From: Aquisediminimonas profunda
Lineage (GTDB): Bacteria; Pseudomonadota; Alphaproteobacteria; Sphingomonadales; Sphingomonadaceae
Assembly (NCBI RefSeq): GCF_019443285.1
Contig: NZ_CP080327.1
Location: 3,034,001 to 3,098,000, forward strand
Direction of reading: 5' to 3'
Length of the DNA stretch: 64,000 nucleotides
The translations under genes were made by a program, and so were the position numbers. Positions 402 to 8,160 of this stretch are shown piece by piece. The notes below the pieces were generated by a model. The model saw only the letters and a list, made by a program, of their open reading frames with translations. It was not told the DNA's origin and searched no databases. Within the stretch, counting starts at the first letter, position 1. Each line of letters opens with the position of its first letter.

Positions 402-1724
402 ATGAATACACTCCTCTACGAAAAAATTGTGGCATTGTCCGGTTCGGATGCTAAACCAGTTCTCATGGTTGAACTGTTGGCCCAAACACCCTCTGGCACG
501 TCACGGCCCAGACATGCAGTGAAACGGCAGATTTTGCTCGAAGAAGCAGCGCGCCAGATCAACGATCGAGGTGCCGGGGCGGTCAGCCTGAACGATATTG
601 CCGAACGTGCCGGCCTTTCGCGCAATGCGCTTTACTACTACGTTACAGATCGCGCTGATCTGACTTTTCAGTGCTATTTGAGGACCTGTGAGTCAGCGAC
701 GGAGAACTTGGCTATTGCCTATGAGCAGGGCGCCAACGCTCTTGAACGGATCCGCATTTATACTGAAAGAACTCTGAGTTACGAGCGCCCTACACTGGCG
801 GCGCTTTGCGATCCGGATTTCCTTCCGGAGCCGCATCGTGCCACGATCTTGGACCTTGACCGACGCAACATCGAGACACTGGAAAATTTCATCACGGATG
901 GGGTGCATGAAGGCATCATTCGTCCCGTCCATACCGAAATTGCTGCACAGACCCTGCATGGAATGATTAACTGGACACAGCTGTCTTACAAGTGGCTGAA
1001 CCAGAAGGATGGCAAGGCACTTCGCAAGCGCGTCACTGGCTCAATCTTGGACCTGTTCTTTCACGGCCTTGCTGCAAGCGAGGGCAAGAGCTTTGCATGC
1101 CCGATCGATGTCGCGACGCTGACAGCGAGGCCATTCAATGCTTTTGATCGCGCGCAAGCGACACAGGAAAAAATGGCACAACTCGTGGCAGCAGCATCAC
1201 GCCTGTTCAATCGCCGTGGCATCGACGGGGCATCGCTCGATGATATCAGCGCGAGTGTCGGCGCGACAAAAGGCGCAGTGTATCATTATTTCGACGACAA
1301 GATGCATTTGATTACGCAATGCTATGAGCGTGCATTTGATCTTTATTCCATGTTCGTTGATGTGGCGCTGGCACAAGGGACAACAGGCTTCGAGCGCTCA
1401 ATGATGGTCATGCACCTTAATTCGCAAGCGCAGGCTGGGCCCACACCGCCCCTCATGCTCCAACCAGGGTTGCTGTCCGTTCCCGAAAGCCACCGTGCGC
1501 GCTTCATGCTGCAATCACAGGAGATTTGGCGACGCTGCGAAGCGATGATCCGTGAAGGAGTTGAAGACGGAAGTTGCCGACCCTGCGATGCTCGTGCAGT
1601 TGCAGACGTCTCTGCAGGTGCCTTCCTGTGGCTCCACAAATGGCTGCCAGAGAATTATGTGCTGACACCATTCCAAGTTGCGGACGAACAATGCCGCATT
1701 TTGATCAATGGTGTCGCTCGTTGA
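402..1724 (+). CDS. Tandem TetR-family transcriptional regulator with two DNA-binding domains
   Basis: A 440-residue protein, about twice the usual TetR length. Two TetR-type helix-turn-helix segments are visible. The first is near residues 45-95 (SLNDIAERAGLSRNALYYY) and the second near 255-305 (SLDDISASVGATKGAVYHYF). Each is followed by about 140 residues of helical ligand-binding-type sequence, so this is an internal duplication or fusion of two TetR units. It is divergent from a TonB receptor and probably represses it through the palindrome at 347-360. The start is uncertain: the GGAG before the ATG at 402 is only one base away, and the Met at codon 22 is an alternative. The ligand is unknown. 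Confidence 0.85.
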   Translation: MNTLLYEKIVALSGSDAKPVLMVELLAQTPSGTSRPRHAVKRQILLEEAARQINDRGAGAVSLNDIAERAGLSRNALYYYVTDRADLTFQCYLRTCESATENLAIAYEQGANALERIRIYTERTLSYERPTLAALCDPDFLPEPHRATILDLDRRNIETLENFITDGVHEGIIRPVHTEIAAQTLHGMINWTQLSYKWLNQKDGKALRKRVTGSILDLFFHGLAASEGKSFACPIDVATLTARPFNAFDRAQATQEKMAQLVAAASRLFNRRGIDGASLDDISASVGATKGAVYHYFDDKMHLITQCYERAFDLYSMFVDVALAQGTTGFERSMMVMHLNSQAQAGPTPPLMLQPGLLSVPESHRARFMLQSQEIWRRCEAMIREGVEDGSCRPCDARAVADVSAGAFLWLHKWLPENYVLTPFQVADEQCRILINGVAR

Positions 1725-2974: not shown

Positions 2975-3150
2975 ATTTTGTTCCTGTCGAACGGAAGCGG
3001 CAGGAGCGGCAATGCCAGGTTTCAAACTGCCGTCGAAGGTCCGCAACAGTATCGATGCCGGACGATGGCGTATGGCAAATATGGGGTGGAATGCGGACAT
3101 GAGACAAAGCCCGCGCTCTTAGGTTTCTTTCTTGAGCCCGCCGATTGCCG

Positions 3151-3387
3151 TCAATGCAGTCTGTGCTTGTGCCCTTCTGGTAGCATGCCAATGCCGTGAG
3201 CCTTCATTTTCGCGATTTCTGCCTGCGTCTCGCGCAGATCCGCCACAGCATCTTGCTGCAAGTGGGACGGGCTGATGGGTTGCCCAACTGAAACCTCGGT
3301 TGGCTTGCCCTGAATGATCGCAGAATGCACCGTGGCAATTGCGGCTGCACCAATGAAGAAGATCACGGCTTTTGCAGGCAACGTCAT
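3151..3387 (-). CDS. Small protein with N-terminal hydrophobic segment, function unknown
   Basis: A 78-residue open frame. It starts MTLPAKAVIFFIGAAAIATV, which looks like an uncleaved anchor or signal peptide, and then has a polar helical region (LRETQAEIAKMKAHGIGM). It lies 30 bases downstream of the small exported protein at 3418 on the same strand, so the two could be co-transcribed. No strong ribosome-binding site is visible before the ATG. I do not recognise a family. Confidence 0.45.
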   Translation of the reverse strand: MTLPAKAVIFFIGAAAIATVHSAIIQGKPTEVSVGQPISPSHLQQDAVADLRETQAEIAKMKAHGIGMLPEGHKHRLH

Positions 3388-3417
3388 TATGAGATCGCAG
3401 TTGAAGCTGCAGGTGCT

Positions 3418-3702
3418 TTATCTGCGGGCGCGCTTTCTGGTGGTCGTCGAGTGCCGGCTGCCTGCTTCCCGCCGCGTATTCATGCATTCATCCTGCAGTG
3501 TTGCAGAACATGGTGGGTAAACGGTGGGTGTCGCAGTCGGCGCCTGCGCTTGCGGCGCGGGTTGGGACATAGTCGGCATTGGTGCTGGTGGCATTGGCTC
3601 GACAGCAAGTGGAGCGGTCGTCGATTGAGCCGCCAGCGTGGCAGACATCATCAGAAAGGCGGCAGATGGCACCAAAGCCCGAAACCGCATGTTTTTCCTC
3701 AT
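3418..3702 (-). CDS. Small exported Pro/Ala-rich protein with a conserved-looking Cys pair
   Basis: A 94-residue protein with a signal peptide (MRKNMRFRALVPSAAFLMMS, then LAAQ), a Pro/Ala/Thr-rich stretch and a C-terminal YPPCSATLQDECMN segment whose two cysteines could form a disulfide. Small periplasmic proteins with a similar signal, Pro-rich and CSxTxxDxC layout occur in sphingomonads, from memory. The ATG at 3702 is chosen because AGAAGGAAAAG precedes it closely; the longer frame from 3741 would bury the signal peptide. Function unknown. Confidence 0.6.
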   Translation of the reverse strand: MRKNMRFRALVPSAAFLMMSATLAAQSTTAPLAVEPMPPAPMPTMSQPAPQAQAPTATPTVYPPCSATLQDECMNTRREAGSRHSTTTRKRARR

Positions 3703-4020
3703 TTTCTTTTCCTTCTGGTAACGGTGGGGAGACCCAACCACGCAGTTCTTGCCGTTGACAACGAAGCAAGTGCGCTAAGGTTCCTCAATCGAAACAAGAT
3801 TCTGTGGGGTGATCAAGGTCATGGCGGCCGCATGCTGTTTCGCGGCTGCGCCCTCTCCTGACACCGCGCTGGCGATTGGCCACCGTGCAGAGGCTGCCGC
3901 TTGGTACCCGGGAAGCGGCAGGCCCATTTTCAGGTTAGGCTGTTGCGTGTTTGATCTGGCTCGCCCTGTTATGCCCCAATGTGGCCAAGGCAATGCATTG
4001 TCGATGACAGAACGCGAGAC
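3703..4020. other. Gene-free gap
   Basis: About 320 bases between the small exported protein and the small membrane peptide. Short open frames exist on both strands, but none has a convincing start, domain or composition. I see no terminator or repeat. Confidence 0.4.
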
Positions 4021-4134
4021 TCAGTAATATCCGATAGCGAGAAAAATGAGCGCCAGAATGAACAATAGAAGCAGCGCCCCTTCCAAGCTGGCATGCCTGA
4101 TGTGCGTCCGGACGGGTTTGCTCCTGTGCATCAT
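4021..4134 (-). CDS. Candidate 37-residue single-span membrane peptide
   Basis: The minus strand encodes a basic head (MMHRSKPVRTHIRHASLEG) followed by a strongly hydrophobic helix ALLLLFILALIFLAIGYY that ends at a TGA stop. Charge distribution and length are typical of bacterial small membrane proteins. The start is uncertain, because the ATG at 4149 adds five residues. No strong ribosome-binding site is visible. The assignment rests on composition only. Confidence 0.4.
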   Translation of the reverse strand: MMHRSKPVRTHIRHASLEGALLLLFILALIFLAIGYY

Positions 4135-4149
4135 GGCGAGAGAATTCAT

Positions 4150-4444
4150 GTACTTGCATATTGTTCCGGCGCTCGTGGCGATTGTTATTTTGAATGGTCA
4201 TCGCTCCAGCAGTCAGCGGCAGCAACTGCAGCGCCAATGAACTCCGCTCAATTACAGTAAATCGAAGCCTACTCAGGCGAAGGGTCATTGCCGTCGGCTC
4301 GAAATGGCGGTTGTTCTGACAAGCCGAATTACGACCCTCATGGCTGCCCTCTTGCATGCGAATATGGCGTATCCCTTCGCGGCCCTGAAGAGCGCAACGT
4401 TCGCATTCCGCGCCATTGCGCGATCCGGTTTCATCCAAAGACAA
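4150..4444. other. Gene-free stretch before the small-RNA candidate
   Basis: About 295 bases in which I find no supported gene. It would contain the promoters of the small peptide on the minus strand and of the RNA candidate on the plus strand. Confidence 0.35.
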
Positions 4445-4576
4445 TACAATAATTCGCAATTAAGTTGAGACCTTCCCAGGGTTTCAATGGTTCTCATTAT
4501 GCGACCTGGAGGAGGGCTCGGGACCCGAGTGATCCTCAACTGGCCTGGCCTTTCCGGAGGCCAGGCCATTTTTTTT
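4445..4576 (+). ncRNA. Candidate small structured RNA ending in an intrinsic terminator
   Basis: No coding gene lies upstream on this strand, yet a classical terminator ends the segment, and two further hairpins precede it. Hairpin 1 pairs TTGAGACC (4465-4472) with GGTTTCAA (4480-4487). Hairpin 2 pairs GAGGA (4509-4513) with TCCTC (4533-4537), enclosing CTCGG/CCGAG (4517-4521, 4525-4529). Hairpin 3 is the terminator. A TACAAT at 4445-4450 resembles a -10 element and would start a transcript of about 115-120 nt near 4457. No good -35 is visible. I do not recognise an Rfam family. Confidence 0.5.
4541..4576 (+). terminator. Strong intrinsic terminator
   Basis: The stem TGGCCTGGCC (4541-4550) pairs perfectly with GGCCAGGCCA (4559-4568) around an 8-base loop and is followed by eight T residues (4569-4576). 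It is oriented for plus-strand transcription and has no CDS immediately upstream, which supports the small-RNA call. Confidence 0.85.
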
Positions 4577-4732
4577 GCCGCGTTCATTCAACTTCAGGAA
4601 TAGGTCAATCGCGGGTCACGCTTTTTCGTCGCAACTCAGTACGATGGTTACGCCGTTCGTACCAAGGAGACATCGGGCGAAGTCTGAATCGGTTATGGTC
4701 GACAAACCTGAAACTGAACTTCTCCTGCTGGA

Positions 4733-6217
4733 TTAAAGTTGCCCGGCAGCGCGACTTCCCATTGGTCCTTCAGTTCTTTTGACACTGACCCTTTCGTGCC
4801 ATGCAGAAAGCAACTGTTCACTGTCCCCGCTGCCAAAAACATATCGGTCCGGTCGGACGAGAACAGAGTTCACCTCATTCCTGGATAGCCATTTGTCGAG
4901 CGTACCAGCGAAGGGCGCTATTTTGGGATCCGCCAGGCCGGCCTTTTCGATAAGCCAGAATCCAGTGCCAAGCACATCATCCAGACGCGCACCATCCAAA
5001 GCCAGCGTTTGCGGGAAATAGCTGCCTGCTGCAGGGCTGCCCGGCAAAATGGCGCCAACCGAGATTGGCGGATAAGCAACTGGGCCATCAGGGAGCTTGC
5101 GCAATGCCCGTGCCACCTTGAACTTCGTATCCCTCAGGAATGCTGTCCATTTACTCGTTGTGCAAACCATGCGGCCCATCATGATCGCCATCTGGATCGT
5201 GGCACGCAGATTGGGTTCGCGTTCTGGCTGGTATGTGTCGAGGAGGTCGTCCTGTGCGTGGCCACGCAGAACTTCCGCAAGTTTCCACGCCAGGTTGGCT
5301 GCATCGCGCAGGCCCGAGCACATCCCTTGACCGGCAAAGGGCGGAGTCTGGTGCGCCGCGTCACCTGCCAGCAACACGCGCCCTTTTCGCCACCGGTCCG
5401 CAATACGCGCGCGGAAGGTGTAAACGGCCTTGCGTTCCATCCGTACCGCACCATCGACCTTCCAGGGCTCGAGGAGCTTTTCTATGAACGCATCGTCACT
5501 GACCTGTTCGGGAGTTTCGCCCGGCTTGATCATGAATTCCCATCGGTGGCGTCCTTCGCCCATAAGGACGCAGGTCGTCGGCCGGTCCGGATCGCAAATC
5601 TGCAGGTTCGCGGTCGGCAATCTGGAATAATCATCGACCAGCACATCGACGACGAGCCAGGGCTCCTCAAAATTGAGGTCGTCGAATGCTATGCCTGAGG
5701 CTTCTCGCACCGGGGAGCGTGCACCATCTGCGCCGACGAGGTAGCGGGCACGTATGATCTTTTCTCCTTCGGGCGTTTGAAGGCGGGCGGTGACGCCCTC
5801 GGGATCTTCATCAAAGTCCAAGAGTTCCCATTGGCAATGCAGTGTTGCTGTTGACTCATGGGTCAACGAACGTCGCAATGCTGCCTCAACCGATGGCTGA
5901 TGAATCATGTTCGCGCCCGGCCAACCGCCAGGGCCAATCTTGTCCGAGCCGGCAAAACGCATCAGGAGGTCGCCCTTGGCGTTTAGGAAGTCATAACGGG
6001 CTACACGACGGCTGGTTGCCATCACTTCGTCCGCAACACCGGCTTCTTGCAGGATACGCATTCCTTCGTGATCAATATGAGCAGCCCTGGGCAGCGGATA
6101 GATCTCGGCTTCCTTTTCGGCCACAATCACCTTCACGCCGCGTCGCGCGAGCAGAACCGCCAGTGTCACCCCTGTCGGACCGCCGCCCGCGATCAGCACA
6201 TCGCAGTCAAAACTCAT
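4733..6217 (-). CDS. FAD-dependent aromatic hydroxylase (MhpA-like flavoprotein monooxygenase)
   Basis: A 494-residue class A flavin monooxygenase, predicted to hydroxylate a phenolic substrate using NAD(P)H and O2. FAD-binding landmarks are the N-terminal GGGPTGVTLAVLLARRGV (residues 11-28), the DGARSPVR motif and GRVLLAGDAAHQTPPFAGQG with its GD dinucleotide. The best family match from memory is the 3-(3-hydroxyphenyl)propionate / 3-hydroxycinnamate hydroxylase (MhpA) group, but the substrate cannot be fixed. It is last in a minus-strand operon after an extradiol dioxygenase and a fumarylacetoacetase-family enzyme, starting 6 bases after the latter's stop. Together they form a hydroxylate, cleave, hydrolyse set. 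Confidence 0.85.
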   Translation of the reverse strand: MSFDCDVLIAGGGPTGVTLAVLLARRGVKVIVAEKEAEIYPLPRAAHIDHEGMRILQEAGVADEVMATSRRVARYDFLNAKGDLLMRFAGSDKIGPGGWPGANMIHQPSVEAALRRSLTHESTATLHCQWELLDFDEDPEGVTARLQTPEGEKIIRARYLVGADGARSPVREASGIAFDDLNFEEPWLVVDVLVDDYSRLPTANLQICDPDRPTTCVLMGEGRHRWEFMIKPGETPEQVSDDAFIEKLLEPWKVDGAVRMERKAVYTFRARIADRWRKGRVLLAGDAAHQTPPFAGQGMCSGLRDAANLAWKLAEVLRGHAQDDLLDTYQPEREPNLRATIQMAIMMGRMVCTTSKWTAFLRDTKFKVARALRKLPDGPVAYPPISVGAILPGSPAAGSYFPQTLALDGARLDDVLGTGFWLIEKAGLADPKIAPFAGTLDKWLSRNEVNSVLVRPDRYVFGSGDSEQLLSAWHERVSVKRTEGPMGSRAAGQL

Positions 6218-6223
6218 CTGGCT

Positions 6224-7063
6224 TCAGGCCTCCGCGACCATTGTAGCTTCAATATGGCCAAGGCCGTCGATTTCGCATCGCACGGTATCGCCTGCTTTCA
6301 GGAATTGGCGTGGGTCCATTGCCGCGCCGACGCCACCGGGCGTGCCCGTGAACAGCACATCGCCGGGTTCAAGAGTCATGCCGACCGAAAGATGCTCCAC
6401 CTGTTGCCAGACATTGAACACGAGGTGCTTCGTGTTGGAATCCTGCCGCTTTTCGCCATTGACGAAGCAACGCAGCCCCAGTTGATGAGGATCGCCCACG
6501 TCATCGGCTGTAACGATCCACGGACCCATGGGGGCGTGCGTGTCGAAGCTTTTTCCCAGCGACCATTGCGGCGTGGCGTGCTGCCACATGCGCTCCGTAA
6601 CGTCATTGCCGACACAATATCCGAATATTGCCGATTGGGCATCATCTGCGCTGACATGCTTTCCACCTTTGCCGACAATAGCCACCAATTCGACCTCATA
6701 GTCTGCCGTCATTGTGCCCCTGGCGATCTCGATCGGATCGAAGGGGCCATTGACGCTGGTCTGTGCCTTTGTGAACCAGACCTGCCGTTCAGGGGCCGCC
6801 ATGTTCGATTCAGCGATATGGTCGGCATAGTTGAGGCCAATCGCAAAGATCTTGCCGGGACGCTGAACAGGCGCTTCAAGCTTCACAGACGACAGAGACT
6901 GTCCGCCGCCCGCAGCAGCCTTCGCTTCAAGGTCTGGTTTAAGCGCGTCCCAATCCCGAATAAGGTCAATCATTGAGCCGTCGACGCCGGTATCAATGAT
7001 CTTGTCCTCAACGACGATGCCGGTGCGCGTGCGGCCCTCAAAAGTGTAAGTCGCGAGTTTCAT
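6224..7063 (-). CDS. Fumarylacetoacetate hydrolase family protein
   Basis: A 279-residue member of the FAH family (acylpyruvate hydrolases, 2-keto-4-pentenoate hydratases, HpcE-like decarboxylase/isomerases). Signature segments are FAIGLNYADHIAES, MTADYEVELVAIVG (metal-binding Glu residues), and LEPGDVLFTGTPGGVG near the C-terminus. In this operon it would process the ring-cleavage product made by the neighbouring VOC dioxygenase. Its ATG overlaps the stop of the dioxygenase gene by four bases (ATGA), indicating translational coupling. The exact reaction is not determinable from sequence alone. Confidence 0.85.
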   Translation of the reverse strand: MKLATYTFEGRTRTGIVVEDKIIDTGVDGSMIDLIRDWDALKPDLEAKAAAGGGQSLSSVKLEAPVQRPGKIFAIGLNYADHIAESNMAAPERQVWFTKAQTSVNGPFDPIEIARGTMTADYEVELVAIVGKGGKHVSADDAQSAIFGYCVGNDVTERMWQHATPQWSLGKSFDTHAPMGPWIVTADDVGDPHQLGLRCFVNGEKRQDSNTKHLVFNVWQQVEHLSVGMTLEPGDVLFTGTPGGVGAAMDPRQFLKAGDTVRCEIDGLGHIEATMVAEA

Positions 7064-8147: not shown

Positions 8148-8160
8148 GTACAAACACGTG

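Follow-up and report, generated by a model that had tools for sequence, protein, structure and literature searches.

The structured stretch at positions 4445-4576 of the window, the 64,000 nucleotides of DNA analysed here, contains at 4497-4576 (+ strand) a divergent member of a small-RNA family characterized by a GCGACC box at the 5' end. We consider it rather probable that this copy is a divergent satellite paralog within a Sphingomonadaceae-wide, multicopy family of base-pairing small RNAs of the Hfq type, which act in trans. An earlier note on this DNA had proposed an independent, orphan structured RNA of about 120 nt with three hairpins. As to the kind of element this proposal is supported by the covariation, the terminator of its own and, in most members, a promoter box of its own, but the RNA is not an orphan and the length is doubtful.

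Structure of the stretch

The three stems that had been proposed are present on the + strand (4464-4488, 4509-4537 and 4541-4568), and the stretch folds with a minimum free energy of -57.1 kcal/mol, compared with a mean of -38.6 kcal/mol for shuffled sequences (z -4.93, with 0 of 200 shuffles as good). The last stem had been taken for a terminator and is indeed a strong one, the hairpin at 4541-4568 being followed by T8. When the pieces were folded separately, the terminator reached z -5.16 (0/200 shuffles as good), the hairpin-1 piece z -2.50 and the stem-2 piece z -2.30 (4/200 shuffles as good for each of the two), so that most of the folding signal comes from the terminator. As is usual for inverted repeats, the antisense strand likewise gives a good fold (z -3.17, 3/200 shuffles as good).

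The segment GGAGGAGGG (4508-4516), previously read as partly exposed, belongs for the most part to the 5' arm of stem 2, in which GAGGA at 4509-4513 pairs with UCCUC at 4533-4537. The conserved single-stranded element is GCGACC at 4501-4506, which lies directly 5' of stem 2 and is unpaired when 4497-4540 is folded alone. Around hairpin 1 a closing helix of 5 bp is predicted (4454-4458/4500-4504), which, if transcribed, would mask part of this box. The features are collected in Table 1.

Table 1. Positions of the features on the window and the evidence for each.
Feature	Position	Strand	Evidence or remark
Possible degenerate promoter remains	4427-4450	+	GGTTTCATCCAA 4427-4438 and TACAAT 4445-4450
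Hairpin 1	4464-4488	+	Fold, z -2.50; seen in the window copy only, not in the family alignments
Small-RNA body by family model (5' single strand, hairpin, linker, terminator)	4497-4576	+	R2 52.9 bits, R3 46.2 bits
GCGACC, invariant 5' box, proposed exposed seed	4501-4506	+	120/120 members
Stem 2	4509-4537	+	Folds alone; topology shared with own paralog L183
Stem 2, lower helix GAGGA/UCCUC	4509-4513/4533-4537	+	Fold
Stem 2, upper helix GCUCGG/CCGAGU	4516-4521/4525-4530	+	2x2 internal loop below, loop GAC
Rho-independent terminator hairpin, 12 pairs	4541-4568	+	Fold; covariation in family
T8 tail of terminator	4569-4576	+	Sequence

Family models and membership of the window copy

A first covariance model (R1), for which only the window sequence was used, was scanned over 397 Sphingomonadaceae genomes, and several of the loci that it returned have GCGACC(C)GAAGG in common, followed by a hairpin and a terminator. 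From 25 loci of this window-made model, 11 were kept for their common GCGACC and 14 dropped, and the 11 (alignment A3), with the window excluded, served to build a second model, R2. On the window's own genome R2 scores 4497-4576 with 52.9 bits (E 2.8e-8), a value that is somewhat inflated because the founders were chosen by GCGACC among window-model loci. Since the R2 founders came from the window-made model, we built a third one, R3, from 32 members, none of them in the R2 set and two of them paralogs from the window's own genome, again with the window excluded. Scanned over the 64-kb window, R3 gives 46.2 bits to 4497-4576 and 11.9 bits to the second-best place; the own paralog at 1404811, which is not among its members, reaches 57.7 bits, and the best out-of-family locus (L279) reaches 35.9 bits, only 10 bits under the window copy. 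With both R2 and R3 the window copy stands above the out-of-family background of 34-36 bits.

By DNA similarity alone the copy is single in its own genome, without an orthologue in 12 other genomes of the same genus and without a match in plasmids or phages. R2 finds four members in the own genome (852825-852909, 853004-853083, 1404811-1404897 and 3038497-3038576, the fourth of which corresponds to window 4497-4576) and, at E<=0.1, matches in 280 of the 397 Sphingomonadaceae genomes and 76 of 96 genera, with up to five matches per genome, so the RNA can no longer be called an orphan. At E<=1e-4 about 203 of the 397 genomes (a hand count) retain a match, and none of the out-of-family matches listed does. 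Among the other same-genus genomes listed for the R2 scan, 7 of 10 have a match.

A sample of the class (190 genomes) gave R2 matches at E<=0.1 in 27 genomes, among them three listed under the own or the same family; the matches outside the family indicate that this threshold admits chance matches. None of the latter exceeds 34 bits, and all seven that were fetched lack GCGACC and resemble gene terminators. In a sample of the order, 57 of 176 genomes match R2 at E<=0.001, every one of them Sphingomonadaceae. At the sensitivity used, the small-RNA family is confined to the Sphingomonadaceae.

One candidate relative was rejected. A family signal of 34 nt (query 82-115) corresponds to argG codons of other genera, to which window 4511-4544 is up to 85% alike, in frame with GGLDTSVILKW; the resemblance was taken as chance because the own genome's argG is visibly less alike there. 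As a separate observation, a manganese riboswitch (RF00080, 63.7 bits) lies near argG in another sphingomonad genome (L009 611-808).

Conserved anatomy and covariation

GCGACC is invariant in the 120 collected members, and GCGACCCGAAGG is present in 95 of them. In the lower part of the family hairpin a GAAGG-like sequence pairs with a CCUU-like one. Across 102 aligned members 92.6% of the cells are paired, 18 of the 20 pairs show double changes, and the double-change cells number 400 against a shuffle mean of 119, while sliding-partner controls bring the pairing down to 31-64%; the alignment was fitted to the R2 structure, and the contrast with the controls is large. For the main helix of the terminator the share of paired cells is 95%. 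Alignment A5 comprises 100 sources with R2 scores of at least 45 bits, and weak members are absent from it because of this threshold; alignment A7 was left out because MAFFT had misaligned some of the terminators. Lower-stem pairs 3 and 5 of the window copy depart from the family majority (A-U to G-C and G-U to A-U, respectively) with the pairing kept.

Conserved pairing, whose absence the earlier note had named as grounds for rejecting its proposal, is borne out by covariation in the relatives for stem 2 and the terminator, but not for hairpin 1, which the relatives do not have. Hairpin 1 sits where they have promoter DNA, which argues for a family RNA of about 80 nt and not 120. The length of about 120 nt given in the earlier note is doubtful also in that the start of the relatives lies shortly before GCGACC, which leaves about 80 nt up to the end of the T run. 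The family RNA probably starts a few bases before GCGACC and consists of one short hairpin and a terminator with a U tail.

A conserved promoter box, missing at the window copy

Outside all of the models, the box TGTCGnTTnnATnCAAT is matched at 10 or more of its 13 positions at 32-33 nt before GCGACC in 103 of the 120 members; at control spacings, 0 of 600 placements reach this value. The box ends about 17 nt before a -10-like element, at whose place 75 of the 120 members have TA, and this placing points to a start a few bases before GCGACC and to an RNA of about 80 nt. Its position would suit an activator or an unusual -35, and its conservation about 17 nt upstream of the -10-like element at the main-locus copies suggests activation by a dedicated regulator. 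Since the box is usual in the family and not universal, it was not used to define membership.

In the own genome TGTCGnTTnnATnCAAT occurs exactly at 2 places, both small-RNA copies, and with one mismatch at 24, a total of 26 compared with 4 for the reversed control; one of the one-mismatch places lies before the other tandem small-RNA copy. The box may serve other genes too. One-mismatch places in this genome include 71103, 257782, 2836262, 3049683 and 3144884 (G000:C1), and at four loci (L155, L185, L188 and L200) two box-like sites stand in tandem 5' of the small RNA. In the literature searched the box sequence occurs in two papers, which by their listing are unrelated.

At the conserved spacing the window copy matches TGTCGnTTnnATnCAAT at 4 of 13 positions and has no TA at the -10 place. 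The window's best match, GGTTTCATCCAA at 4427-4438, reaches 9/13 and lies 61 nt before GCGACC, but 14 of 120 upstream regions, when shuffled, also score 9/13 or better. Whichever of the box alignments tried is used, the window copy has more sequence ahead of GCGACC than the family spacing would give. A sigma-70 scan of window 3000-6500 returned no promoter. The window copy is without the family promoter, so its transcription is only putative.

Neighbouring genes

Most of the collected members are found at the rrf2-sufB locus, shortly upstream of an AraC-type gene. Longer flanks were inspected at 39 loci, namely the 30 best scorers together with selected loci from the own genome, the same genus and elsewhere (L163 and L171 being near-duplicates), and the next same-strand gene is AraC-type in 31; the 8 loci where it is absent downstream are the reason why this gene was not used to define the family. 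In 20 further members the next same-strand gene is AraC-type in 12, DUF885 in 5, rrf2 in 2 and unrecognised in 1. At the main locus of the own genome the small-RNA pair has, by Pfam, dihydroorotate dehydrogenase on its far side and is followed by two AraC-type genes (HTH_18, DUF6597; of these the second stays below both cut-offs), then by Rrf2 and SufB. The pair consists of tandem copies before the AraC-type gene (L182, 3326-3410 and 3505-3584), and a same-genus genome has the same arrangement (L184, 2531-2614 and 2724-2798). It is gene position that would link the family to iron-sulfur or oxidative stress. We calculated the pairing of the four own copies with the starts of AraC1, AraC2, Rrf2, SufB and GPx (20 sRNA-gene pairs) and found nothing convincing among them, the best being equalled by 2 of 200 shuffles.

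Satellite copies have other surroundings. The own satellite at 1404811 (L183) lies directly before a glutathione peroxidase gene. For the window copy, we agree with the earlier note that no convincing coding gene lies close upstream of 4445-4576 on the same strand; to the right follows an opposite-strand monooxygenase gene (4733-6217), no AraC-type gene comes next downstream, and of the + strand genes scanned the first further on to have a Pfam match is a TetR gene at 8158. In the monooxygenase neighbourhood, blastn and R1 over 68 named loci found no relative of the small RNA. At six satellites (L163, L171, L174, L189, L194 and L328) ORF inspection confirmed no gene on the same strand over about 200 nt, and because satellites are mostly without a close same-strand gene downstream, an independent RNA is favoured over a leader.

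Two further ORFs of the window were recorded: that at 402-1724 (+) has TetR_N and TetR_C_24 stretches twice each and is thus a TetR repressor duplicated in tandem within one protein, and a putative small membrane ORF at 4024-4137 (-), of about 36 aa and ending ALLLLFILALIFLAIGYY, is unmatched in 12 other same-genus genomes.

Comparison with described RNAs

Multicopy Hfq sRNA families such as Qrr, AbcR and LhrC have several near-redundant copies per genome, a short RNA and a strong terminator, and the family here resembles them in copy number, shortness and terminator. Neither the window nor 11 member loci reach the gathering cut-off of any family in Rfam 15, and the best sub-threshold matches of the window are sX13, suhB and SorX. 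Both sX13 (RF02232, 18.2 of 50 bits), a Xanthomonadaceae family by its Rfam title, and SorX (RF02784, 14.3 of 46.6 bits) are alike in their short stem-loops and terminator, with the cut-off missed. The suhB/mmgR family (RF00519), an alphaproteobacterial trans-acting small RNA, follows the same plan of hairpin, pyrimidine-rich linker and terminator, but its model consensus lacks the GCGACC box and the window scores 15.9 bits against a gathering cut-off of 41; the member locus L205 reaches 31.7 bits, also sub-threshold. Two suhB-like RNAs of the own genome, slightly under the Rfam cut-off, are found at G000:C1:2607045-2607123 (L286) and 1325050-1325131 (L287).

SuhB of Sphingopyxis granuli TFA, which binds the thnR 5' UTR with Hfq, is the nearest studied sphingomonad small RNA that we met in the parts of the literature seen (PMC6563040). 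No such small-RNA family is named in the open-access literature searched, nor is such an RNA named in the portions seen of Zymomonas sRNA papers (PMC6970203, PMC7064620) and Sphingopyxis dRNA-seq papers (PMC7713065, PMC7083833). The GCGACC-box family seems to be undescribed.

Alternative explanations

The family might be a cis-acting leader, an attenuator of the AraC-rrf2-suf locus in which hairpin and terminator decide read-through from the box start, the satellites being captured or stranded leaders. The AraC-type gene directly downstream on the same strand (31/39 and 12/20 loci), rrf2 or DUF885 in 7 more and the L183 copy before the glutathione peroxidase gene all speak for such a function, and at the main locus the RNA may act as a leader. 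As an account of the family we nevertheless regard it as unlikely, since the window copy, with an opposite-strand gene downstream, has no same-strand gene to control, the six satellites listed above have no confirmed one within about 200 nt, L182 and L184 each have a tandem pair of copies in front of AraC, no conserved alternative antiterminator was seen, and 95% of the cells of the main terminator helix are paired. An assignment to suhB/mmgR, or to a similar described alphaproteobacterial sRNA family, would account for the weak sub-threshold matches of the window and L205 and for the similar plan, yet the window and 11 member loci miss the gathering score of 41 and the own genome's best RF00519 matches lie elsewhere (40.9 and 34.2 bits, just under the cut-off), which makes it extremely improbable.

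For the window copy in particular, a silent, decaying paralog whose promoter was broken by insertion or rearrangement is conceivable though doubtful. Box and -10 are missing at their conserved places, extra sequence precedes GCGACC and DNA similarity finds no match in 12 other same-genus genomes, as a pseudogene would have it; against this, the RNA body is intact, with GCGACC, a stem with two compensated pairs and a terminator with T8, and the intact stem counts against silence because in a silent copy one would expect the pairing to decay. We hold it to be very improbable that the element is a mere transcription terminator guarding convergent genes, the rest being coincidence: the terminator dominates the fold (z -5.16) and is convergent to the monooxygenase gene, and the model's out-of-family matches look like plain gene terminators, but many relatives have the 5' box and stem 2 too, their pairing covaries and a promoter box stands at a fixed distance.

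Proposed mechanism and meaning

For the trans-acting small RNA that we prefer, we propose that a short transcript would be stabilised by Hfq through its U tail and that its exposed 5' box, UGCGACC, would pair with mRNAs carrying GGUCGC-like sites, possibly together with the pyrimidine-rich stretch that precedes the terminator. A DNA-binding protein at the promoter box, perhaps the neighbouring AraC protein, would regulate the small RNA. In the window copy the RNA body would have been kept under structural constraint and the family promoter lost, so that either another promoter drives it, for example the TACAAT at 4445, or it is silent; driven from TACAAT, the RNA would be longer, including hairpin 1, and its GCGACC box would be masked.

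An AraC-type activator at the iron-sulfur assembly locus that switches on near-redundant GCGACC-box RNAs, which in turn retune mRNAs in iron-sulfur or oxidative stress, while satellites, their promoters rewired, place the seed under different signals or compete, is a speculative picture that we put forward with low confidence. Sphingomonads are used in bioremediation and lignin work. Since no Rfam 15 cut-off was reached in the loci tested, annotation that relies on Rfam would miss the family; the genome annotation of S. granuli TFA, in the part of its description seen, relied on Rfam (PMC4741004). The window copy appears as a paralog with its RNA body kept and its promoter replaced or lost, and the GCGACC-box family is of greater interest than this copy itself: with an almost invariant 5' box, several copies and a location at rrf2-sufB, it is a candidate global riboregulator of the sphingomonads.
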